From an uncultured Erysipelotrichaceae bacterium (GTDB lineage Bacteria; Bacillota_I; Bacilli_A; RF39; UBA660): a stretch of 42,480 nucleotides of DNA. Below are positions 13,467 through 42,480 of this stretch, piece by piece. The DNA lies in NCBI GenBank assembly GCA_902780585.1, contig CACZGA010000006.1, positions 1 through 42,480 of the forward strand. Reading direction: 5' to 3'. Position 1 is the stretch's first letter, and every line of letters begins with the position of its first letter. The notes below the pieces were generated by a model. The model saw only the letters and a list, made by a program, of their open reading frames with translations, was not told the DNA's origin and made no database searches. The translations under genes and the position numbers were made by a program.

Positions 13467-15977
13467 ATGTTTGATAGGATTATATATATAGGTGACGATT
13501 CTTGTAATGTTAAATTGAAAGATGATGCGCAAATTACAATGAATTTAATGAATCTTCATTTAGTTTTTGAGGATGATACTAAGAAAATATTGGCTGAAGT
13601 AGATGATTTAGATGGCAATATTTTAAAAGCTAGATTTTTAGGAGAAATAGTAGGGGATCGTTTAATTGGTGGTACTATACGTAAACCATCATTAAATGCT
13701 TCTATTAGAGTTATTGAAAATAATGAAATACCTCTTATTACTGGTTCAAATACTAAAGGTTTTATGGAATTAGGTGTTAGTCCTTTTTATGATGATTATC
13801 CTGTTTTCTTAGATGTTAATAGTTTCTTTAGTAACCACTTTGCTATATTTGGTAATACTGGTTCTGGTAAATCTTGTGGTACGACTCGTTTATTTCAAAA
13901 TATGTTTCATGATGAGAGATTAGATCCTTATAAAGCTAATATATTTATATTTGATTCTTCTGGTGAGTACTATAGTGCTTTTAGTAATTTAAGTCAGATT
14001 AATCCTAATTATAATTATCGTTATATTAGTACAAATGAAACTGATGGGTTAGGAGAAAAACTACGTTTACCTATTTATTTATTAAATAAAGATGATTTAG
14101 CTTTATTATTACAATGTACTTCTCATTCTCAATTACCTATTATTGAGAGAATGTTAAAATTAGCATTAGTGTTTAGTCAAAATGATATGGATGCGAATGC
14201 TTATAAAAACCATTTAATTGCGAAGGCAATTATGAATATTTTATATACAAATGAAACTGCACCTAATAAGAGAAATGAAATATTCTCTATATTAGCAAGT
14301 TGTTCTACTAAAGAGTTTAATATGGAAGCTCCAGTACAAGGCGTTGGTTATGTTCGTAAGTTCCGTGAATGTTTCTTGATTGATAATAGTGGAAACTTTA
14401 CGGAGAGTGTATTAATGAATGAATATTTAAATTCATTTATTAAAGAAGAGTATGATAATTATGAACCTCATGGGGGAGTATTCTATGATTTAAATACTTT
14501 AGAAAAAGCTTTGAACTTTACTTTAATTAGTGAAGGTTGGTTACGTAATGAACAGACTTATGGTGATTCTGTTACAATTCGTGTTCGTTTACATTCATTA
14601 ATAGTAGGGGATAATGCTAAATACTTTGATGTTAAAGATTATATGTCATTAGATGCATTTCTTTCTTCTTTATTAATATCTGGAGGGAAGAAATATCAAA
14701 TTGTTAATATTAATTTAAATGATATAGATGATGATTTTGCAAAGGTTTTAACAAAGATTTATTCACGTTTAATTTTTGATTTTTGTAAAGGTTTAAAAGA
14801 AAGAGCAAGTATTCCTTTCCATATTGTACTTGAAGAAGCTCATCGTTATATTCAAAGTGATCATGATAGATTCTTGTTTGGTTATAATATATTTGAAAGA
14901 ATTGCTAAAGAAGGTCGTAAGTATGGTGTAATACTTGGGCTTATTTCTCAGAGACCAGTTGAAATTAGTGATACTGTTATTTCTCAATGTACAAATTTCT
15001 TAATATTTAAAATTAATCACCCTATGGATGTTGATTATATTCGTAAGATGGTTCCGCATATTACAGATGAGATTATTGAGAAACAAAAATCTTTACAAGC
15101 TGGTACTTGTTTAGGTTTTGGTTTAGGATTTAAAATTCCTTTAATTATTAAAATGAAAATGCCAGATCCAGCACCTTTGTCTGGAAACTGTGATGTTGTT
15201 AATATATGGTGTGGTTCTACACAACCTGCTTCACAACCTGTTTCTGTTGAGACAGGTGTTAGCACAGAAGTATCTGCAGGTGCACCAGCTAGTCCGCTTC
15301 CTGATGTTCAACATGTAACACAAACTGCTCCTGTTGAGGCAAGTGTTAGTGCAGAAGTATCTGCAGGAGCGCCTGTTAGTCCACTTCCTGATGTTCAACC
15401 CGCAACACAACCTCAAGCAGTTGCACCTGCTCAACCACAACCTGTTGTTGCTGTACCTGCACCAGTAGAAGTGCCTGCCGCTCCTGTAGTAGAGGTTCCT
15501 CAAGTTCCACAGTCAGTTGTTCAAACTCCTGTGGCTCCTGCTCAAGTACAAATGCCAGTTGCAGTACCAACTGCTGTTGCTCAACCTATAGCTCAACCAC
15601 AACCTGTTGTTGAAGTGCCACAACAAACTGTTGTTGCTATTCCTACAGCACCAGCGGTTGTTCCTGAAGCTTCAGTTGCAGTACCACAACCTGTGGCGCC
15701 ACAACCTCAAGTTGCTGCGCCAGTAAGTGAGCCAGTAAGTGAAGTGCCTGAGAAGTTTGATGATTCATTTGTTGTAACAACCCCAGTTGATGAGGTTCCA
15801 GATAATTTGTCTAATGATATTAATGCAAATGTGCCTGTTCAAGAAATAGCACAAGTTAATATCAATGCACAAGGTATGACTCAGAATGATGTTGTTCCTA
15901 AAACAGATACCGGAGAACCTTTACTTGATTTAGTAGATGATGACGATGATGATGATAAATTTGATGGTGATTATTAA
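13467..15977 (+). CDS. HerA/FtsK-superfamily ATPase with long disordered C-terminal tail
   Basis: This 836-aa protein has an N-terminal beta-rich, HAS-barrel-like part (1-110), then a RecA-like motor domain with Walker A GNTGSGKS (129-136), a DSSGEYYSAF segment and Walker B HIVLEEAH (about 451-458), followed by a sensor-like GLISQRP. This is the DUF87/HerA arrangement of hexameric DNA-pumping ATPases. From about residue 580 the protein turns into an Ala/Pro/Val/Gln-rich, probably disordered tail with two 29-aa repeats, ending in a run of Asp. No NurA, Sir2 or other HerA partner gene is adjacent. It has its own promoter and terminator and separates ylxM from ffh. The start ATG has AGGGG upstream. 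The cellular role is not known. Confidence 0.85.
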   Translation: MFDRIIYIGDDSCNVKLKDDAQITMNLMNLHLVFEDDTKKILAEVDDLDGNILKARFLGEIVGDRLIGGTIRKPSLNASIRVIENNEIPLITGSNTKGFMELGVSPFYDDYPVFLDVNSFFSNHFAIFGNTGSGKSCGTTRLFQNMFHDERLDPYKANIFIFDSSGEYYSAFSNLSQINPNYNYRYISTNETDGLGEKLRLPIYLLNKDDLALLLQCTSHSQLPIIERMLKLALVFSQNDMDANAYKNHLIAKAIMNILYTNETAPNKRNEIFSILASCSTKEFNMEAPVQGVGYVRKFRECFLIDNSGNFTESVLMNEYLNSFIKEEYDNYEPHGGVFYDLNTLEKALNFTLISEGWLRNEQTYGDSVTIRVRLHSLIVGDNAKYFDVKDYMSLDAFLSSLLISGGKKYQIVNINLNDIDDDFAKVLTKIYSRLIFDFCKGLKERASIPFHIVLEEAHRYIQSDHDRFLFGYNIFERIAKEGRKYGVILGLISQRPVEISDTVISQCTNFLIFKINHPMDVDYIRKMVPHITDEIIEKQKSLQAGTCLGFGLGFKIPLIIKMKMPDPAPLSGNCDVVNIWCGSTQPASQPVSVETGVSTEVSAGAPASPLPDVQHVTQTAPVEASVSAEVSAGAPVSPLPDVQPATQPQAVAPAQPQPVVAVPAPVEVPAAPVVEVPQVPQSVVQTPVAPAQVQMPVAVPTAVAQPIAQPQPVVEVPQQTVVAIPTAPAVVPEASVAVPQPVAPQPQVAAPVSEPVSEVPEKFDDSFVVTTPVDEVPDNLSNDINANVPVQEIAQVNINAQGMTQNDVVPKTDTGEPLLDLVDDDDDDDKFDGDY
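15246..15419 (+). repeat. Two tandem 87-nt repeats in the HerA-like gene
   Basis: Units 15246-15332 and 15333-15419 encode 29-aa copies (each containing EVSAGAP and SPLPDVQ). They differ at scattered sites, many synonymous. They start the low-complexity tail. Confidence 0.85.
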
Positions 15978-31532: not shown

Positions 31533-31559
31533 TTGAATTTAAGAATTTTATGTTATAAT
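31533..31559 (+). promoter_or_regulatory. Promoter of the surface adhesin-sortase genes
   Basis: TTGAAT (31533-31538), 15-nt spacer, perfect TATAAT (31554-31559) with a TGT extension that compensates for the short spacer. Confidence 0.65.
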
Positions 31560-31583
31560 ACATTTAAAGGTAAGGTGAAAAAT

Positions 31584-32780
31584 ATGGAAAAAATTTATAT
31601 GGAGGGAAATCACAGGCAAACTAAGAAAAAACGTGGCTTAGATGCGTCAGTGGTTTTGTCTTTTGTTGTTGCTATCTTTGCAGTATGTTCGCTTGCATTG
31701 TATGGTGTTGCAAGTAATCAAAATACTGGAGTTAGTTATGCTGCTCCTACAGGAGATAGTATAGTTTTTAGTTTGGATGAGAGTGAATCGGTAACAGTGT
31801 CTGAATCGGCAGATCCTAGTAATAATTGGAGAATTACTGTTTTTTATTCAGAACCTGATTTTACGAATCCAATTTTTTGTATAGAAGCTAATGACGATGT
31901 TGTTTCTACAAAGAATGGAACTGACTATTATAAAGGAGAAGCAATTGATGATTATGGATTATTGTATATCTTAAATAATAGTTATGTTAATGGAAAATCT
32001 ATTTATGATTCTGCTAATCCAAATAAATATGTAGAGTCTTGGGCAACTCAAGTTGCAATATGGTTATACTTATATGAAGCAGATCCTTCAAGTGTACATT
32101 ATTTAAAACCTGAGTATGTTGAGGGTTATAAGACAATGGATCGTATTGATTATTGTAGTGATATTACTGATCCAACTTCTTGTGAGTATGCAGCTATTCC
32201 TGGTATTGGAAATAAAATAGATGAATTAGTAGCTGCAGCTAAAAATGCTAGTAATGCAAAGAAATTAGATGTAAATATTTCTAGTGATAAGATAGTTAAA
32301 ACTAAAGATGGAAAGTATTATCAATCTGATAAAATTTCAGTAGTAGGTAATCCTTCAAGCAGTTTAAAGAACTTTACAGTTGCTTTAAGTGGTGTTGATG
32401 GAGCTATTGCAGTAGATTCAAATGGTAATAAGTTAACAGGTGAAGTTGCTCCTGGAACAGATTTCTATGTTATTGTTCCTGTTGATAAAGTAACAGAAAA
32501 AGTTTCAAAAGTTAAAGTAAGTGTTACTGGTACATTTGATTCTTTAGCAGGAAATGTATACTCTACTACAGAAGTTTCTGCTGGTGGAAAACCATACCAA
32601 AAAGTAGTGTCTGTTACTGGAACAACAGTTAATGAAAATAAAGGAATTGAAGTAGAATTTGTTGGTGCTCCTGATACTGGTATGAATACAGCTCAAACCA
32701 TTTACTTTATAGGATTAATAATCTTGTTGTGTGGTGTTGGTATTGTATATGCAAACGCAAAACCAGTTGAAAGTAAATAA
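31584..32780 (+). CDS. Cell-wall-anchored thioester-domain (TQXA) adhesin
   Basis: This 398-aa surface protein has an N-terminal membrane/signal segment (about 22-43), then a thioester domain: Cys99 in PIFCIEAN and the TQxA motif WATQVAIW (Gln156), the pair that forms the internal Cys-Gln thioester in Gram-positive adhesins and can bind host amines covalently. One or two Ig-like domains follow (about 225-355). The C terminus carries APDTG, a hydrophobic helix (YFIGLIILLCGVGIVYA) and a short tail, a sortase-type sorting signal with A in place of L. Start ATG 31584 with AGGTGA upstream. The next gene is a sortase-like protein, overlapping it. Confidence 0.85.
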   Translation: MEKIYMEGNHRQTKKKRGLDASVVLSFVVAIFAVCSLALYGVASNQNTGVSYAAPTGDSIVFSLDESESVTVSESADPSNNWRITVFYSEPDFTNPIFCIEANDDVVSTKNGTDYYKGEAIDDYGLLYILNNSYVNGKSIYDSANPNKYVESWATQVAIWLYLYEADPSSVHYLKPEYVEGYKTMDRIDYCSDITDPTSCEYAAIPGIGNKIDELVAAAKNASNAKKLDVNISSDKIVKTKDGKYYQSDKISVVGNPSSSLKNFTVALSGVDGAIAVDSNGNKLTGEVAPGTDFYVIVPVDKVTEKVSKVKVSVTGTFDSLAGNVYSTTEVSAGGKPYQKVVSVTGTTVNENKGIEVEFVGAPDTGMNTAQTIYFIGLIILLCGVGIVYANAKPVESK

Positions 32781-33423
32781 TAAAATAAAAAAGAGCCATG
32801 TATTAGTTATTGGCTCTTTCCTTGTATTTGTAGGTGTATTTTCTCTTTTTTCTAATTATTTCTTAAAGATGCGAGATGAAGTTTTTTCAGATATGCGTAT
32901 TGCGATGATGGATACTGATGTAGTTGATAATCATGTTGAAGAACAGGTTGAAGATGCACCTGTGGCGGAGGCTGTTGTATCACAATCTACGTCAGGCGAA
33001 AATACTTCCTATGTAATTGATTATAGTAAATATTTGGGTGTATTAGAAATACCTAAGATAGGATTAAAGAGGGGCTTTTATAATGTCGGCTCAAAATATA
33101 ATAATATTAAATATAATGTTACAATGGTAGAAGGATCTACTTTACCAGATGTTCCTAATGGGAATCTAATTTTGATGGCTCATTCTGGAGATGCATATAT
33201 TTCATATTTTGCATATTTATATCGTCTTAATGTGGGTGATATGGTGTATGTTACTTATGCAGGGGTGAAGTATAATTTTCAAATTGTTAACATTTATGAA
33301 GTTGAAAAAAATGGTGCCGTTGTTATTAGAAGGAATCATAACAAAACTTCTCTTACTATGATTACTTGTACTAAAAATAATGATGCTACACAAACAGTTT
33401 ATATTTCTGAATTGATTAGTTAG
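32749..33423 (+). CDS. Sortase-like protein lacking the usual active-site arginine
   Basis: This protein has an N-terminal anchor (about 18-37), an acidic linker, then a sortase beta-barrel: LEIPKIGLKRGFY, LILMAHSG (His145) and LTMITCTKNND (Cys207). The Arg normally some nine residues after the Cys (as in TC...RL) is not there: the stretch reads DATQTVYI, with Thr216 in the expected place. It overlaps the end of the adhesin gene; ATG 32749 (224 aa) is chosen, but GTG 32731 or TTG 32767 are possible since no ribosome site stands out. It presumably anchors the upstream adhesin if active. Confidence 0.8.
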   Translation: MQTQNQLKVNNKIKKSHVLVIGSFLVFVGVFSLFSNYFLKMRDEVFSDMRIAMMDTDVVDNHVEEQVEDAPVAEAVVSQSTSGENTSYVIDYSKYLGVLEIPKIGLKRGFYNVGSKYNNIKYNVTMVEGSTLPDVPNGNLILMAHSGDAYISYFAYLYRLNVGDMVYVTYAGVKYNFQIVNIYEVEKNGAVVIRRNHNKTSLTMITCTKNNDATQTVYISELIS

Positions 33424-34073: not shown

Positions 34074-37000
34074 ATGAAAAAGATAAAGGGTTATTTTGAT
34101 GCGTTTGTAAATAAAATTACTAAGAATGGGAAGATTTCAATTAATAAGAAGTATTTATTAATTGGATTAGGTATTATAGTTTTATGTTTGACTATATTTG
34201 GAGTAAAAAGTCTTTTTTCTAAAAAGATTGTTGGTATAAAAGAAGATTCGTTTTCTATTGTTAGTGTGGATAAAAAGTCTAGTGGAAAATACCTAGAGTT
34301 AGAGGATACTTTTTTTGTTAAAACTAAAAAGGGTTCTTTAGAAGAAGTAGGTAAACACTTATACTTAGAGCCTGCTGTTAGGTACAAGATAGTTCAAAAG
34401 AAGAAAAATGAATATGAAGTAAAAGTACAGGATGTTCCAAGTGATACAATTGTTAATGCTAAATATGTTGATCAAGATGTGATTGAAGATCAATGGGCAT
34501 TTCAATCTACTAAGGATTTTAAGGTAAATTCAATATTTCCAATTGATGGTTCTAAGGGTATAAATGTTAATACAACTATTGAAATTCTATTATCTTATCC
34601 TGATGTTAAGGATATTAAAGATCATGTTGAAATATCTCCGGCTGTAGAGGGTGAGTTTGTTAGTAATGGTAGACTTTGGATATTTAAACCTTCTGCACCA
34701 TTACAAGCAAATACTATTTATACTGTTACTGTTAAAGATACTTTAACAAGAGAGGGTGAACATTTAAAAGAATCTTATAAATCTACTTTTTCTACTTATG
34801 ATGTAAAAACCACTTCAACAGGCGAGACAAAATACTATAGTAGTATTACTGTTGATGATATTTCTACTTATAGACCGGGAGATCCTATTTCTATTAGGGT
34901 TTCAAATAATAGTAATAAAGAAAAGAAAATAGCAAGAGTAGAGTTATTAAAAGTACAAAGTGCTGGTGATTTTAAGAAATATTTAGAGAAAAGTACTGAT
35001 GTTAATACTACTTCTTTAGGAGATTTTGCTTTTAAGGAAGTATCAGAAAATTTATATACATTAAATGATTCTTTACCGGTTGGTTATTATTTAAGTAATG
35101 TCTATGAAGATAATGGAGATTTATTATTTACATTTCCAATACAAGTTCATGAATTATCAGCTTATTTAATATCTACACAATCTGATATTTTAGTTTGGGT
35201 TGCTAAAGGTAATTCTTTTTTAGAGGGAGTTCCTGTTAAATATTTAGATAAAACTGCTAAAACTGATAAAGAAGGAATTGCAAAGATTACTAATTATAAT
35301 ACCTTAGAGGATAAAATACAATATGTAACAATTGGTGATGGAGATCCTATTTTTGTAGGGGTTAAAAACATTAATCGTACAGAGTATCCTAATGGGTATA
35401 TTTATACAGATAGACCTTTATATCAAAATACAGATGAAATTCAAATATGGGGATATATTCCTTTAAGTCATTTTCAAGAGTTTACAGTTTCTCCAAAAGA
35501 TTTTGTTTTGTCAGTAGGTGACGAGACTGTTCCTGTAGAAATAAATAAAGATGGGACATTTATTACTAAATATCCATTACGTAATTATAAAGATGGGTCT
35601 TTATGGATTAATCTTCAATATCAAAATAAAGAAATTGCGAGTAGAGTTGTTGATGTATATTTATATGAAAAAGAAATGTATAACTTTACAGTTGAGATGG
35701 ATAAAAACTACGTAAAAGCAGGGGATAAACATCACTTTACTGTTACTGTTGATCATATTAGTGGAGTAAGAGTACCTAATAAAGAAATAACCGCAACAGT
35801 TGGGGGAAAGGTATATACAGCTACTACAGATGAAAATGGTGTTGCGTCATTTGATATTGATACAGAATTTAAAAGTGAACTTACTAGTAGTTATCATGTG
35901 GATTATATAAAAATAACTAGTTCTTTATCAGAATATGCTTCGAAAGGTATTACTTATAATCTATATGTAATAGATCGTTATGTTTATTTACATGATTATA
36001 ATTATGCTGCTAAAAAGAAAAAAGTTTCAGGAAATGTAAATTATATTAAGGAATTAGGTAAAGGGCATATTGATAATATTGATGAATTAAAGGGAGATAA
36101 TTATCAAGGTGTTATTGATGTTTCTATTGAAGAAACTACTGGTACTAGAGAACTTGTTGGTCAAAAATATAATTCGTTTACTAAGCAAAATGAACCTAAT
36201 TATAAATGGAATTATTCTACTTCAACTGTTTATAATGGTAATGTTAATGTAGAAAATGGTAAGTTTCAAATGGATATACCTTATGAATTAAAACAGTCAT
36301 CTGATGATAAGACTTATAGTTACAATATTATCTTTAAAATGAAAGACTTAAATGGTAATGATTATCAATATAGAGGATATATATATAGAAATAATCAAGA
36401 TACTCATCAAAATGGTTATGCATCATCTTATGGTATGTCTGACTATGATATGTATGCTTATTATCTTGATTATGAACAAAAAAAGAAATCAGTTTCTGAT
36501 AAGACTTATTTAAATTTATATCATTATACTGGTGTACATGAAGTAGAAAATAATCCATTATTAATTGTTAAATATAAGAATAAAATATTAAAACAAAAGA
36601 TTTACCAAAATAAGCAAGATTTAGAAACATCATTTAGTAAAGATGAAGTCCCTGGTGATGATTTTACAGCGGCATATTTTAAGAATGGAGTATTTTATCG
36701 TATGCCTTCTAACTATCAGGATTATCAAGAAGAGGATTCTAAGTTAGATGTAAGTATTAAACCTAGTAAGAAGGCTTATAATCCTGGTGATAAAGTAACA
36801 TGTGAGATTTCAGTTAGTAAGAATGGTAAAGGGATTCCTTCTAAGATAAATATTAGTGTAGTTGATGAAGGTGTTTTTAAAACTGCTAATGATAATACTA
36901 ATATTTTAGGAAAAATCTATCAAGATAAATATTATTATGAGTATACTTATTCTACTTATAGAGATTATTCTTTATATTCTGCTGGAGGTGGAATGGGTGG

Positions 37001-38672
37001 TACTTCTGGTGGTGCTAGAGCTAATTTTGGAGATACAATATTCTTTGATATGGTAGAGACAGATAAAAATGGTAATGCTAAAGTTACATTTACTTTAAAT
37101 GATTCTATTACTTCTTTTAGAATTACTGTTCATGCTGCTAATGATGATGCAGATGTGGGAGTTAATTATACTAATATTGAGTCATCTCTTCCTATTTCTG
37201 TTTCTACTGTAAAGCCTAGAGGATTAAAAATAGATGATGATGTTGTATTAAATGCAACAGGTATTGGAAGTACTAAAGAAGATATTGTTTATGATTTTGA
37301 AATTGAGGGAATAGATAAAAAGATTTCTAAAACGGGTATTATTGGAAGAACAACTTATGTTAATTTTGGAAAACTTCCAGCTGGTAATTATAAAGCGACA
37401 ATTAGAGCTAAAGCTGGAAAAGAAACTGACGCAATGGAATTTAATTTTATGGTTGGTAATACTCAAACTGAAATAGCTGTTAAAAATACAGGACTTATTT
37501 CTAAGATTAAAAAGATTAAGCCAACTAAAAATCCAATTTATTTAGAGTTGTATAGAACTTCTTTTAAAGAGTATGATGAATTCTTAGAGATTATTAAAAA
37601 GACTAATGAAGAAAGAATGGATACTAAGTTCTCTTATAAGAAAGCTATGGAATTTGAGAATAAATATGTTGAAGAAAAGAATAATACTGATATTGGGGAT
37701 ATTTCTTCATTTAAGGGAGAAACTGGATGGAAGTATTTAAATGGTGAAGAGGTTTCATATACTTTAACAGCTATATTAGCTTATTATGATGAGGCTTATC
37801 GTTTTGATAAATCAATTTACTATAATATTATTAATAATTCTAATAAGAGTTTAGATGAGAGACTAGATGCTTATATGGTATTAGCTGCTATGAAAGAACC
37901 TATTTTAGATGATTTAAAAAATATTAATAGTGGTATGAATGATAAGATTGCATTAGCTTATTTATTCTTAGGTGATTATCGTGTTATAAAGAACTATAAT
38001 TTCTCTGATCCTGGATTGGCTGCTTTTGCGGCAACTTTCTTACATAAAGATAAAGCTGCGGATAGAATTAATTATTTACACGAAACAGATGTTGAAAATA
38101 GATATTTATACTTTGCTATTGTGTCATATTTTGAAAATAATAAAGTAGATTTAGAGAGTACTGAAGACGTAGTGGTTACTTATGGTAAAAAGAAGGAAAA
38201 ACTTACTATTACATCTTTAGGTAAAAAGAAATTATCTATTTATCAAGATGATTTGAGTTCTTTAAAAATAGATTCTAAAGCTAAGGATATATATGTAGAT
38301 TATTATTATGAAGGTAATATTTCAGAAATAGATGATAATAATAAAATAGAAGATATTACTATGTCATTAAGTTCTGATAATGTTACTTTGGGAGATACAG
38401 TAACTTTAAAAGTTGATTTCCATAACCATAATAATAGATATTGGTTATATTTACCTAATGGGTTAAGATTATCAAATGAGAAAAAGAATAATACTTTTGT
38501 TTTTGCTAATAGAATAGATCATATTATGATTGGTAAACCTCATGATGTAAGTGAGATAGAAATACCTTTATATGCATCATCTCCTGGTACTTATGTAATT
38601 GAACCTATTATTGCGAAAAAAGATGATCAATATTTGATGTCTAATTCATTGACAATTACTATTAATGAATAA
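34074..38672 (+). CDS. Macroglobulin-like (MG2/A2M) surface protein without thioester
   Basis: This 1532-aa membrane-anchored extracellular protein has a single N-terminal helix (about 27-47), Ig-like domains (about 150-245, with FPIDGSKGINVNTTIEILLS), an MG2-type repeat with YTDRPLYQNTDEIQIWGYI (about 443), further MG domains, the bait-adjacent strand SVVDEGVF (about 929), an A2M-type domain (FFDMVETDKNGNAKVTF, about 991; SSLPISVSTVKPRGLKIDD) and a helical toroid-like region (about 1200-1380) where the thioester domain would sit. The hallmark CGEQ/CxEQ is absent; the protein has almost no Cys. Start has AGGGAG upstream. Bacterial A2M proteins trap proteases; this one may be structural or adhesive instead. 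Confidence 0.85.
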   Translation: MKKIKGYFDAFVNKITKNGKISINKKYLLIGLGIIVLCLTIFGVKSLFSKKIVGIKEDSFSIVSVDKKSSGKYLELEDTFFVKTKKGSLEEVGKHLYLEPAVRYKIVQKKKNEYEVKVQDVPSDTIVNAKYVDQDVIEDQWAFQSTKDFKVNSIFPIDGSKGINVNTTIEILLSYPDVKDIKDHVEISPAVEGEFVSNGRLWIFKPSAPLQANTIYTVTVKDTLTREGEHLKESYKSTFSTYDVKTTSTGETKYYSSITVDDISTYRPGDPISIRVSNNSNKEKKIARVELLKVQSAGDFKKYLEKSTDVNTTSLGDFAFKEVSENLYTLNDSLPVGYYLSNVYEDNGDLLFTFPIQVHELSAYLISTQSDILVWVAKGNSFLEGVPVKYLDKTAKTDKEGIAKITNYNTLEDKIQYVTIGDGDPIFVGVKNINRTEYPNGYIYTDRPLYQNTDEIQIWGYIPLSHFQEFTVSPKDFVLSVGDETVPVEINKDGTFITKYPLRNYKDGSLWINLQYQNKEIASRVVDVYLYEKEMYNFTVEMDKNYVKAGDKHHFTVTVDHISGVRVPNKEITATVGGKVYTATTDENGVASFDIDTEFKSELTSSYHVDYIKITSSLSEYASKGITYNLYVIDRYVYLHDYNYAAKKKKVSGNVNYIKELGKGHIDNIDELKGDNYQGVIDVSIEETTGTRELVGQKYNSFTKQNEPNYKWNYSTSTVYNGNVNVENGKFQMDIPYELKQSSDDKTYSYNIIFKMKDLNGNDYQYRGYIYRNNQDTHQNGYASSYGMSDYDMYAYYLDYEQKKKSVSDKTYLNLYHYTGVHEVENNPLLIVKYKNKILKQKIYQNKQDLETSFSKDEVPGDDFTAAYFKNGVFYRMPSNYQDYQEEDSKLDVSIKPSKKAYNPGDKVTCEISVSKNGKGIPSKINISVVDEGVFKTANDNTNILGKIYQDKYYYEYTYSTYRDYSLYSAGGGMGGTSGGARANFGDTIFFDMVETDKNGNAKVTFTLNDSITSFRITVHAANDDADVGVNYTNIESSLPISVSTVKPRGLKIDDDVVLNATGIGSTKEDIVYDFEIEGIDKKISKTGIIGRTTYVNFGKLPAGNYKATIRAKAGKETDAMEFNFMVGNTQTEIAVKNTGLISKIKKIKPTKNPIYLELYRTSFKEYDEFLEIIKKTNEERMDTKFSYKKAMEFENKYVEEKNNTDIGDISSFKGETGWKYLNGEEVSYTLTAILAYYDEAYRFDKSIYYNIINNSNKSLDERLDAYMVLAAMKEPILDDLKNINSGMNDKIALAYLFLGDYRVIKNYNFSDPGLAAFAATFLHKDKAADRINYLHETDVENRYLYFAIVSYFENNKVDLESTEDVVVTYGKKKEKLTITSLGKKKLSIYQDDLSSLKIDSKAKDIYVDYYYEGNISEIDDNNKIEDITMSLSSDNVTLGDTVTLKVDFHNHNNRYWLYLPNGLRLSNEKKNNTFVFANRIDHIMIGKPHDVSEIEIPLYASSPGTYVIEPIIAKKDDQYLMSNSLTITINE

Positions 38673-38701: not shown

Positions 38702-39616
38702 TTACCAATCTTTTATAATAGTGGCGTAATATTCTTCAAATGATATATTGTTCTCTTTTATGTAGGTGGCGATTTCTTTACCTACATAACGATAGTGCCA
38801 TGATTCATATTCGTAGCCCGTTTCTTTTTCTTTATCTTTAGGAAATCTTAATATAAATCCATATTCATGAGCATGATTGCTCATCCAAGTAAATTCTTTT
38901 GTTTTTTCAAAACTTGTGTAATTTGTTTGGCCATTATATACATCTACGGCTAAGCCTGTTTGGTGTTCTGAGTGGCCTGGTCTTCCAGAATATGTATCAG
39001 CTTTTTCCTCGCCGTCTTGTTTTTTATAGCGGTTATATAAATCTACTTGGTATTCATAACTTCTATAGGTTGACATGGCAATTATACTTAGTTTTTCTTT
39101 TTTGGCTGCTTTTGCCATTTCTTCAAAGGCTTCTTTAGCTTCTTTTACCATACGCATATCACTAAGGGCGTAGGTTGTACTTATTTTTTCTAAGTTTTCT
39201 GGAATATAATCTTCATCTAAATAATAGTATTTATTTACTAGTATTTTGTTTGTGTTTTTGTTTTTAGCAGGTATTTTATAATCGTAATGGGGATTATCTA
39301 ATTGCATGTTAACATTTTTTATTATTTGTATTATATCCATGTCAGGGTTATTATCTTTATATTTTTGATATCTTTCTAAATAGTCATTATTAAAATAATC
39401 TATTTGTTTTTTTACTTTATCTAAGTCAGTTACGGGCTCTTCTTTTTTCTTTTTTTCTTTTGTTTCAATATTATTTTTTTTCTTTTTCGGTGTTTTTAAA
39501 GCATTAACTACAAGGTTAGTTGCTTTTATAAGTGAAAATACTAGAAGAAATATAATTACTAAGAAAATTATAAAATTCTTTTTTTTGATTTTTAATTTAA
39601 CTTTTCTTTTGGTCAT
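38702..39616 (-). CDS. D-alanyl-D-alanine carboxypeptidase (VanY family)
   Basis: This 304-aa Zn metallopeptidase trims the terminal D-Ala from peptidoglycan stem peptides. A basic N terminus and one membrane helix (about 13-35) precede a Lys/Glu-rich linker and the VanY/M15 domain: STYRSYEYQVDLYNRY, the metal motif SGRPGHSEHQTGLAVDV (His and Asp ligands) and ESWHYRYVG (catalytic Glu and third ligand His). All catalytic residues are present. Start ATG 39616 has AGGTGA 5 nt upstream; the GTG three codons earlier falls on that site. No van resistance genes are nearby, so a wall-remodelling role is likely. Confidence 0.92.
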   Translation of the reverse strand: MTKRKVKLKIKKKNFIIFLVIIFLLVFSLIKATNLVVNALKTPKKKKNNIETKEKKKKEEPVTDLDKVKKQIDYFNNDYLERYQKYKDNNPDMDIIQIIKNVNMQLDNPHYDYKIPAKNKNTNKILVNKYYYLDEDYIPENLEKISTTYALSDMRMVKEAKEAFEEMAKAAKKEKLSIIAMSTYRSYEYQVDLYNRYKKQDGEEKADTYSGRPGHSEHQTGLAVDVYNGQTNYTSFEKTKEFTWMSNHAHEYGFILRFPKDKEKETGYEYESWHYRYVGKEIATYIKENNISFEEYYATIIKDW

Positions 39617-39628
39617 ATTTTTCACCTA

Positions 39629-39634: not shown

Positions 39635-39661
39635 TCATAGCATTTTTTTAATAAAAATGCC

Positions 39662-39689
39662 TTACAAATTCTTTTTTTTATTATATAAT
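39662..39689 (+). promoter_or_regulatory. Promoter of the first tandem surface-protein gene
   Basis: TTACAA (39662-39667), 16-nt spacer, perfect TATAAT (39684-39689), 27 nt before the ATG. Confidence 0.7.
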
Positions 39690-39698
39690 AATAATAGA

Positions 39699-39911
39699 AG
39701 AATAGGAGGTATTAGTATGTGGTGGAGACGCTTTAAAAGAAAACAACGGTTTCGTCGTAAAAAGCAGATTACATATTTACTTCTATTGGCCTTAATGTTT
39801 AGTATGAGTCTTGGATATGCAGTATTAAATACTTCTTTAAATATTAGTGGAATATCTTCTTTAGCTAATGCTAAGTGGGATATACATTTTGATAATATAG
39901 TTGTAAAAGAG
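39699..39911 (+). repeat. N-terminal cassette, copy 1
   Basis: 213 nt, from the ribosome site (AATAGGAGGTATTAG) through codon 65, repeated at 42268-42480 with 8 substitutions, all synonymous and all before 39813. The copies are 2569 nt apart. Confidence 0.95.
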
Positions 39912-42201
39912 AACTGTAGCTTTTTCGGTGACTTTAGAAAATCCTGGAGATTATTATGAATTTAACATTGATGTAGTGAATGCTGGAACTATTAATGCCA
40001 TGATAGATGAAGTATCAATAAGCCCTGTATTAACAGATACTCAACAAAAATATTTAGATTACATAGTTACATATGAAGATGGAGTCTCTTTAGCAGAAAA
40101 TCAAAGATTGAATGCTGGGACTAGTGAAACTTTAAGAATAGCATTTATTTATAAAGAAGGAGATCCTGATGATTATCCAGATGAAGATGAGGATATTCCG
40201 ATTGAAGTATCTATTACTTATGTACAAGAGGATGAGGATGCAGAAGATGTAAATCACCCACCAAAATTATATAATATTTTAAAAGATGCGGCTGAAGAGG
40301 GAACGTATGCCAAAGAGTATACAGGTTCACATAAAGATTCTTTTACGCAAAATCCTAGTAATAAAATATATCATTGGTATGCAGATGATGATGAAGAGGG
40401 AACAGCAATACTTGATAAAAACAATGTAATATTTGCAAATCATTGTTGGCAAATGATTAGGACTACAGATACTGGTGGAGTAAAAATGATCTATAATGGA
40501 GAGGCTGAGGATGGAAAATGTCTTGATACTCGTGGTACACATGTAGGATATGTAACTAAAATGAGCCAATATTTAGCATCTAATTATTGGTATGGAACTG
40601 ATTATACTTATGATAGTACTACTAAAAAATTTAAAATTAGTGGTACAACAGAACAAGCAACATGGAATGAAACAACAGGACCAGGACTAATTGGGAAATA
40701 TACTTGTAAGCTAACAAGTGTAGATGGTACATGTTCCACCTTATATTTAGTAGAGTCATATTACAATGCATCGAATGCTAATGTATTATATCTTAATTCT
40801 AATTCACATTATTCGCAATTTGGAACTTTACAATTTAATTTAGGGTCTAATTCACCGTCTTATGTTGGATATATGTATAATGCAGTTTATCCATATGTTT
40901 ATCGTACAAGTAATACTGAGGCTATTTATGATACTTTTTCTCTATCTACATCTTACTGGTATGCAGACTCCGTTACATGGGGAAGTCCTGTTGCTAATCG
41001 TTATAACTTAAATAATCCATACCAAGTAAGTTCGACAGCAGATTATTCAAGTTTAGCTGGAAAATATACTTTTAGAAATGAAGGGGAAACATTTACGAAT
41101 AATGGTGTGTATTATATTGCCGGAGTAAACAATACAAATACAATGTTTTATATTTGGTTAAGTGATTATGGATATCATACCTTGTCCGATTTTAATGACA
41201 TTTATACTTATGGAGATAGTTACACGGATAATGGAGATGGTACCTATACAATCAACAACCCAACCACAATAGAAAGAAAGAATTGGTATACAAGTTATGG
41301 AAATGTAAGTGCTGGCAAATATGTATGCAAGAATGCAATAAATAATACATGTGGCGATCTAAGGTATATAATTTCAACAACAAATAAGGTCATGGTATAT
41401 ATTAAGGTAGCAGATAATTTTAAATATGCAAAAGGATTCACTTGGGATGGAAGTAAATATGTATTAGATAATGATACATCTGTTACTTTTTGGAACTTCA
41501 GTGATAAAACAAATTTAACAAGTTTAAATAATGCACATTATACTTGTTGGAATACTACAGGAGAATGTACAACTCTAACTTATATTTATTACTTTAGCGG
41601 ATTATGGCCATACTATATATTTTTAAAAAATGGTAAAAGTGTGGAAGATGCCATAAATGAAATGCTTTATAACGATGATGTAAATACAATAAGTTCCACA
41701 GTGAAAATAGGAATAGATGCTTGGTACAAAAAGTACTTATTAAAAGATTATGATGATTATATTGAAGATATAATATATTGTAACGACAGAAGACAAAAAA
41801 ATGTAGATACAAATGGGTGGAATCCAAACGGAGGAATCCTTTCCCAACGAATGGAATTTTATGGAGAAAGTGATTTAAGTTGTCAAAATGATACAGATAA
41901 ATTTAGTGTAAGTAATAATAAGGCAAAGTTAACTTATAAAGTTGGTTTAATGGCTTACCCAGAGATGAATCTTTCAAACAATGCAAATGCTCGAAAAACG
42001 GGGCAATGGTATTTGCTTGCTTCACCTAACAATTTTGATACTTACAGCGTTGGTGAGTGGAGCGTGAACGCGAGCGGTAACATGAATAGTCATGAGGGCT
42101 ACGCGGACGGCGTACGTCCGGCTATTTCCCTAAAACCAGGAACAACATATTCAACTGGTGATGGTTCTATGGAGAATCCATATATAGTTTCTACTAATTA
42201 A
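39717..42201 (+). pseudogene. Tandem surface-protein gene, copy 1, frameshifted after the N-terminal cassette
   Basis: ATG 39717 opens a frame with a basic start, a signal/membrane segment (YLLLLALMFSMSLGYAVL) and the cassette end WDIHFDNIVVKE; it stops at TGA 39957. The rest of the protein (to TAA 42201) continues in the +1 frame, open from 39907, with no ribosome site of its own before GTG 39928. The second frame resumes a beta pattern (TVAFSVTLENPGDYYEF), so one gene has been broken at about 39911-39930 by one extra base or a longer deletion. The distal part has an acidic linker, a CWQMIRTTDTGGVKMIYNG domain, four Cys-bearing repeats, and a C-terminal domain ending GVRPAISLKPG, resembling DUF6273-like modules. 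It could be a sequencing error, a true pseudogene, or an off-phase gene. Confidence 0.75.
40590..41640 (+). repeat. Four imperfect protein repeats in the surface gene
   Basis: The second frame encodes four related modules of roughly 70-110 aa. Their cores read GKYTCKLTSVDGTCSTLYLV, GKYTFRNEGETFTNNGVYYI, GKYVCKNAINNTCGDLRYI and AHYTCWNTTGECTTLTYIY, each followed by a Y-rich strand pair. Three keep two Cys 8-10 residues apart; the second has lost both. Limits are approximate. Confidence 0.7.
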
Positions 42202-42205
42202 ATTA

Positions 42206-42228
42206 AGGCAGCTTGGCTGCTTTTTTTG
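42206..42228 (+). terminator. Terminator after the first surface gene
   Basis: GCAGC/GCTGC hairpin with a TTG loop followed by T7; separates the tandem genes. Confidence 0.85.
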
Positions 42229-42257
42229 TTTACTTATTCTATTTTTAATTTTATAAT
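42229..42257 (+). promoter_or_regulatory. Promoter of the second tandem surface-protein gene
   Basis: TTTACT (42229-42234), 17-nt spacer, perfect TATAAT (42252-42257). Unrelated in sequence to the copy 1 promoter outside the boxes, so each copy can be transcribed independently. Confidence 0.65.
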
Positions 42258-42267
42258 GTTATTAGAT

Positions 42268-42480
42268 AGAATAGGAGGTATTAGTATGTGGTGGCGCCGC
42301 TTTAAAAGGAAACAACGTTTTCGTCGTAAAAAGCAAATTACATATTTACTTCTATTAGCTTTAATGTTTAGTATGAGTCTGGGATATGCAGTATTAAATA
42401 CTTCTTTAAATATTAGTGGAATATCTTCTTTAGCTAATGCTAAGTGGGATATACATTTTGATAATATAGTTGTAAAAGAG
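42268..42480 (+). repeat. N-terminal cassette, copy 2
   Basis: Second copy of the 213-nt cassette (see 39699-39911). The last 99 nt are identical in both copies. Identity runs to the window edge, so the true end is not visible. Confidence 0.95.
42286..42480 (+). CDS. Tandem surface-protein gene, copy 2 (3' end outside window)
   Basis: The first 65 codons are in the window and encode exactly the same residues as copy 1: a basic start (MWWRRFKRKQRFRRKKQ), a membrane/signal segment ending SLGYAVL, and NISGISSLANAKWDIHFDNI. AGGAGG precedes the ATG by 8 nt. The window stops on the codon just before the point where copy 1 loses its frame, so whether copy 2 is intact is unknown. The LGYAVL-type signal is reminiscent of SipW/TasA-like exported proteins; that is inference. 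Confidence 0.9.
   Translation, partial: MWWRRFKRKQRFRRKKQITYLLLLALMFSMSLGYAVLNTSLNISGISSLANAKWDIHFDNIVVKE

Follow-up and report, generated by a model that had tools for sequence, protein, structure and literature searches.

DUF6273 has been described as a C-type lectin fold that, in phage proteins, bears the variable repeats (VRs) of diversity-generating retroelements (DGRs) (PMC10743442, PMC11792537), and the same domain name has been given to a part of the IgA peptidase of Thomasclavelia ramosa (PMC12402451). On the chromosome of Treponema denticola, a DGR is credited with up to eight targets, as cited in PMC10743442. DGR-mutated DUF6273 proteins are already known; what is new here is the setting, in which secreted lectins of uncultured rumen Bacilli are encoded in tandem and the template is found in relatives.

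We analyzed a window (the whole stretch of 42,480 nt, contig C6 of its assembly) near the right end of which two closely similar leader segments occur in tandem. Very probably, each is the 5' end of a gene in a tandem array encoding secreted surface lectins that a DGR diversifies (Table 1). In each gene, a conserved leader and N-terminal domain would precede a body whose last part is a domain of C-type lectin fold (DUF6273-like). A VR would encode the tip of this domain and would be, or recently have been, rewritten: an error-prone reverse transcriptase (RT) would copy an RNA template repeat (TR), randomising the template adenines, and the cDNA would replace the VR. Purifying selection for the export signal and the N-terminal domain would hold the leader constant, while the array itself would have grown by tandem duplication. 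Display of these lectin-like proteins on the surface, and their binding of ligands, are presumed in this scheme.

Table 1. Features of the array and its left flank (positions in the window)
Feature	Position	Strand	Basis or remark
1532-aa surface-type protein (presumably alpha-2-macroglobulin-like), conserved left neighbour of the array	34074..38672	+	ORF; same order in G015 L151
D-Ala-D-Ala carboxypeptidase-like gene (presumably VanY-type), immediate left neighbour of the array	38702..39625	-	ORF; 78% identical homolog beside the single G015 family gene
Copy 1 promoter-like site, CTTACA-17-TATAAT	39661..39689	+	consensus match only
Leader segment of copy 1, with ribosome site, start codon (39717) and 65 aa (basic and hydrophobic leader, start of N-terminal domain)	39699..39911	+
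Junction with 44 nt missing (L005:527-570 in the C46 paralog) and frame break; probably a repeat misjoin	39911..39912	+
Copy 1 body (open frame 39928-42201)	39912..42201	+	C46 homolog runs leader and body in one frame
Predicted C-type-lectin-fold domain, first half (motif NVIFANHCWQMIRTTDTGG)	40372..40560	+	predicted model residues 44-652 against 9qa6, Z 13.5; boundaries approximate
Insert of Cys-containing beta modules in the lectin-fold domain; shorter in compact homologs	40560..41680	+	alignments, models; boundaries approximate
Predicted lectin-fold domain, second half, ending GVRPAISLKPG	41680..42198	+	boundaries approximate
VR homolog of copy 1, encoding LLASP-variable hairpin-GVRPA	42012..42129	+	GC 0.51 against 0.31 in the body; matches congener TR, E 3.2e-6
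Terminator-like hairpin 3' of copy 1	42205..42223	+	same spacer between the two C46 copies
Copy 2 promoter-like site, TTTACT-17-TATAAT	42229..42257	+	unchanged 5' of the C46 copy
Copy 2 leader segment, truncated by the contig end; 3' end probably L005:1-246 on C46	42268..42480	+

A recount confirms that, as a sequence-only reading had noticed, the two leader segments differ at 8 of 213 nt, always silently (codons 4 (twice), 8, 11, 17, 24, 25 and 32), and that their final 99 nt are the same. The strong selection on the leader that this reading proposed is well founded: a random single change in these codons has a 20-26% chance of being silent, which places eight out of eight at p ~2e-6 to 2e-5. 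Because this is so far from chance, we conclude that purifying selection acts on the leader and on the beginning of the N-terminal domain. The copies are not just these two, since a search of the whole genome for the 213-nt segment, as the reading had advised, returned one further full copy on contig C46 (C46:314-526, 96% identity). Relative to copy 1 it carries six silent coding changes, two of which fall within the 3' part common to copies 1 and 2, and three further changes 5' of the start codon; the 65 residues encoded do not differ among the three copies. In ten more genomes, too few leaders were found for a useful comparison. As for the view that each copy has its own promoter, a promoter-like site (10/12) does lie at the proper distance in each, but the region has no more sites of this kind than chance gives (19 found, 20.0 expected).

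What ends at position 42480 is contig C6, not a cassette. The identity of the last 99 nt had been taken as a sign of recent gene conversion. This pair is the longest exact repeat among the stretches of this genome (G000) that we compared, and the two paralogs of another genome, G015 (RUG12568), likewise share exact repeats of 99 nt at most. Because the contig ends at this very point and G015 shows the same maximum, we rejected gene conversion as the cause. By default, the maximum k of IDBA_ud is 100, which gives neighbouring contigs an overlap of 99. Single samples were assembled by IDBA_ud at defaults, along with MEGAHIT co-assemblies, in the study that produced G015 (PMC6785717), although the assembler of the window's genome may differ. 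The simplest reading of the 99-nt ceiling is that the assembler cuts or misjoins longer identical stretches. The reading frame of copy 1 also breaks exactly at the end of its leader segment, where 44 nt found in C46 are absent; similar breaks between leader and body occur in the third copy of an array on contig C9 and in both G015 paralogs. The loss in copy 1 is probably an assembler misjoin; less probably, the frameshift and the branch point are genuine, in which case copy 1 would be a pseudogene. As a caution, identity runs that stop at contig ends of MAGs built from short reads should not be taken as gene conversion.

The genomic setting of the array can be compared with that of G015, where a single contig (locus L151) carries, in this order, a sortase gene, genes that we take to be A2M-like (alpha-2-macroglobulin-like) and VanY-like, one family gene, and then what are presumably an SGNH-like hydrolase gene, a VanW-like gene and serS. 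The end of C6 has the left neighbours of G015 type followed by the two leaders; C46 begins with the tail of a family gene, continues with a complete copy of 898 aa, and then has the right neighbours of G015 type. As the flanking genes match one G015 contig, C46 is placed after C6, and by this synteny the locus consists of three tandem copies, the second split by the gap, where G015 has one. Also in the window, an LPXTG/TQXA-like surface protein gene is followed by a sortase (class C-like) gene at 31533-33423.

More relatives are present in this genome on contigs C9 (three in tandem), C55 and C12. The C9 set (L045, G000:C9:44000-55676, minus strand) is a second three-gene tandem array of the family; its copies 2 and 3 have a different common leader (MRKFKKRRKKLYTRKIFLLNS) of which 96 nt are identical, and after this leader copy 3 is no longer in frame. 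Over the genus, 37 of 39 genomes match the N-terminal segment, with up to 79 matches, and 31 of 39 match the C-terminal domain, with up to 29. An expandable family of exported proteins with a strongly conserved N-terminus, as had been supposed, is thus upheld by the three copies here against one at the G015 locus and by dozens of relatives in the genus. Concerning export, a stand-alone paralog of the N-terminal domain (L047:4023-5822, G000:C27) adjoins a gene for a signal peptidase of SipW/archaeal type. We dropped TasA/camelysin as an identity for this domain, which has no such match in Pfam, NCBIfam or PDB profiles.

The sequence-only reading had further supposed one leader with variable bodies; a cassette boundary followed by unrelated bodies is not borne out. 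Past the leader, copy 1 and C46 are mostly 75-95% identical for several hundred nucleotides, apart from gaps, and then about 60% identical: the bodies are homologous. These data bear on recombination-driven antigenic variation, in which gene conversion between paralogs would shuffle a constant leader onto different bodies. Leader identity does exceed body identity between copy 1 and C46, the second array on C9 has its own common leader with 96 identical nucleotides, and across the genus homologous bodies stand behind different N-termini (the window-type leader, other leaders, a VWA protein), the body being the common module. Moreover, family genes in two MAGs from roe deer (L099 and L100) are nearly identical over 2.3 kb but differ from the VR onward, up to and past the gene end, a pattern that suggests 3' exchange in addition to VR mutation. 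Nevertheless, the sharp boundary at the cassette end is accounted for by a contig end and a probable repeat misjoin, C46 being unbroken there; identity declines toward the 3' end and does not drop to unrelated sequence; and the changes in the 3' hotspot of C46 and relatives fall at template adenines (see below), which gene conversion does not predict. We therefore hold recombination of this kind to be an improbable explanation, and return to a DGR acting on the 3' end of the genes.

The fold of the body was predicted by modelling. That of the window copy (pLDDT 82) aligns with the DUF6273 domain of the T. ramosa IgA peptidase (PDB 9qa6) at Z 13.5, with 3.3 A over 184 residues. A compact homolog gives Z 13.4 with 9qa6, followed by about 60 chains, nearly all of them C-type-lectin-like, at Z 5-7 (Lcl, 8q4e, at Z 7.0, and many others at Z 5-6.4). 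Foldseek with the full body alone returned no PDB match at E <= 0.001; matches came from a second look and from the compact homolog. With the PF19789 profile, the C46 protein scores 22.4 bits against a cut-off of 23.5, and the window copy has no match. We thus predict a C-type lectin fold of DUF6273-like type for the body domain.

In two congeners, G012 and G007, a DGR lies beside a member of the family. On contig C114 of G012 (locus L195), the target gene is followed by the TR, then by a 140-aa ORF at the Avd position (with no match in Pfam, NCBIfam or PHROG) and lastly by an RT of 508 aa bearing the motifs IGxxxSQ and YMDD. Between the L195 TR and its own VR, 18 of 38 adenines are changed and 0 of 75 other bases. 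The same locus is available from a second, near-identical strain (L106): the VR differs at 24 of 113 positions, the TR at 0 of 113, and the rest at 104 of 11382 (0.9%). This shows recent rewriting of the VR, in the relative and not in the window's genome, and L195 is a complete DGR, with target, TR and RT in one cassette and a VR that has varied between near-identical strains. RT homologs occur in 107 of the 291 genomes sampled from the taxonomic family. The L195 TR pattern and RT have no match in a collection of viral contigs, and a phage origin was rejected on this ground.

Several further observations concern these loci. The 11.6-kb contig of hRUG889 (G012; L195) shares 99.2% identity with one from RUG13444 (L106), and G119 (L271), a MAG filed under another genus, has the 508-aa RT in identical form; strains may be shared, the locus may have been transferred, or contigs may be misbinned. 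The C-terminal part of the RT (L195:5645-7168) matches MutS domain I. TR-like pairs with adenine-biased mismatches also lie close to other RTs, in G015, G032 and G020 (L200, L207 and L209); the templates there are unlike that of L195.

In many homologs, the end of the lectin-fold domain reads WLASP-variable-GVRPA. The C46 copy has here a GC-rich segment of 113 nt (L005:2777-2889) that matches the L195 TR; 20 of the 38 template adenines are changed, compared to 6 of 75 other bases (p 2.8e-7, a value that, like the other adenine-bias p-values, ignores the relatedness of the sequences). In the 17 AAC codons, the first, second and third positions are changed 9, 10 and 2 times. This is the reverse of what selection on amino acids leaves behind, because the free third bases are kept and the first two are changed. 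When thirteen VRs are pooled against the TR, adenines are changed at 265 of 494 positions and other bases at 65 of 975; the p-value of this pool is not independent evidence, because the sequences are related.

For the window VR, the comparison with the L195 TR gives 16 of 37 adenines changed and 18 of 73 other bases (p 0.05, marginal). Because the bias toward this available template is only marginal, another TR or later point mutation is needed to account for the window sequence. Its GAGTGG motif points to a variant TR; such a template with GAGTGG was not found in the genus. A GC content of this level is reached at three places in the window, the VR among them; the GC-rich, repetitive Pro/Val/Ala/Gln C-terminus of an 836-aa ATPase-like ORF (15319-15767) is as high in GC as the VR. 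Copy 1 was probably mutated as C46 was, its own VR being homologous and GC-rich, with an adenine bias that is not significant. Three other paralogs (the C46 head and two on C9) show little or mixed adenine bias, and the C12 copy shows none relative to the L195 TR.

The assembly comprises 1.75 Mb in 145 contigs, at 95% completeness and 6.5% contamination. Neither PF00078 nor the congener RT at E 1e-20 detected an RT in it, and no TR was found; for this reason we claim the family as DGR targets, and no complete DGR for this genome. We infer that a DGR acts or has acted in it, though the assembly has no RT; this DGR may lie outside the assembled sequence, may since have been lost, or may act once transferred in from another source. 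The missing RT and the unbiased C12 copy would also be expected if ordinary duplication and divergence had combined a conserved signal segment with exposed loops that evolve fast under selection, no dedicated machinery for mutation being involved, and purifying selection alone suffices for leader differences that are only silent. Such a process does not, however, keep third bases of AAC codons (2 of 17 changed in the C46 VR) while changing 9 and 10 of 17 at the first two positions, nor does it account for the rise in GC to 0.51-0.57 in VRs; we consider it slightly less probable still than shuffling by recombination.

Targeted rewriting by a DGR remains the reading that we favor. The exported, expandable family with a conserved leader has held from the sequence-only reading, whereas the place where variation arises, and probably the manner, have not: in C46 and relatives the adenine-specific signature lies in a 3' VR, and recombination at the leader is not supported as the main source. 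It is rather unlikely, but conceivable, that orphan targets are diversified or seeded by DGR cassettes that hop between species, the arrays persisting and expanding with no RT and being rewritten whenever a DGR arrives. The silent leader differences have thus led to a testable case of targeted hypermutation of surface lectins that are bacterial and not of phage; genomes of the genus contain many such genes, and a natural strain pair shows the TR fixed and the VR changed.

The closest described systems are the DUF6273 DGR targets of gut phages, including tentaclins (PMC10743442), and of Faecalibacterium prophages (PMC11792537), which have the same fold and a DGR-mutated VR in the C-terminal hairpin. 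Unlike these, the genes described here are chromosomal and form tandem and dispersed multigene families of secreted proteins in uncultured Bacilli, with large inserts in the domain, N-termini that are not those of phage proteins, and a TR pattern and RT that lack viral-contig matches. The closest solved fold, in the T. ramosa IgA peptidase (PMC12402451), is an N-terminal DUF6273 domain of a peptidase, whereas the domain is C-terminal here and carries a VR. As with the multi-target DGR of Treponema denticola, several target genes belong to one family and have their VR at the 3' end; in contrast to it, the genome that bears the targets has no detected RT or TR, and the matching template sits in congeners.
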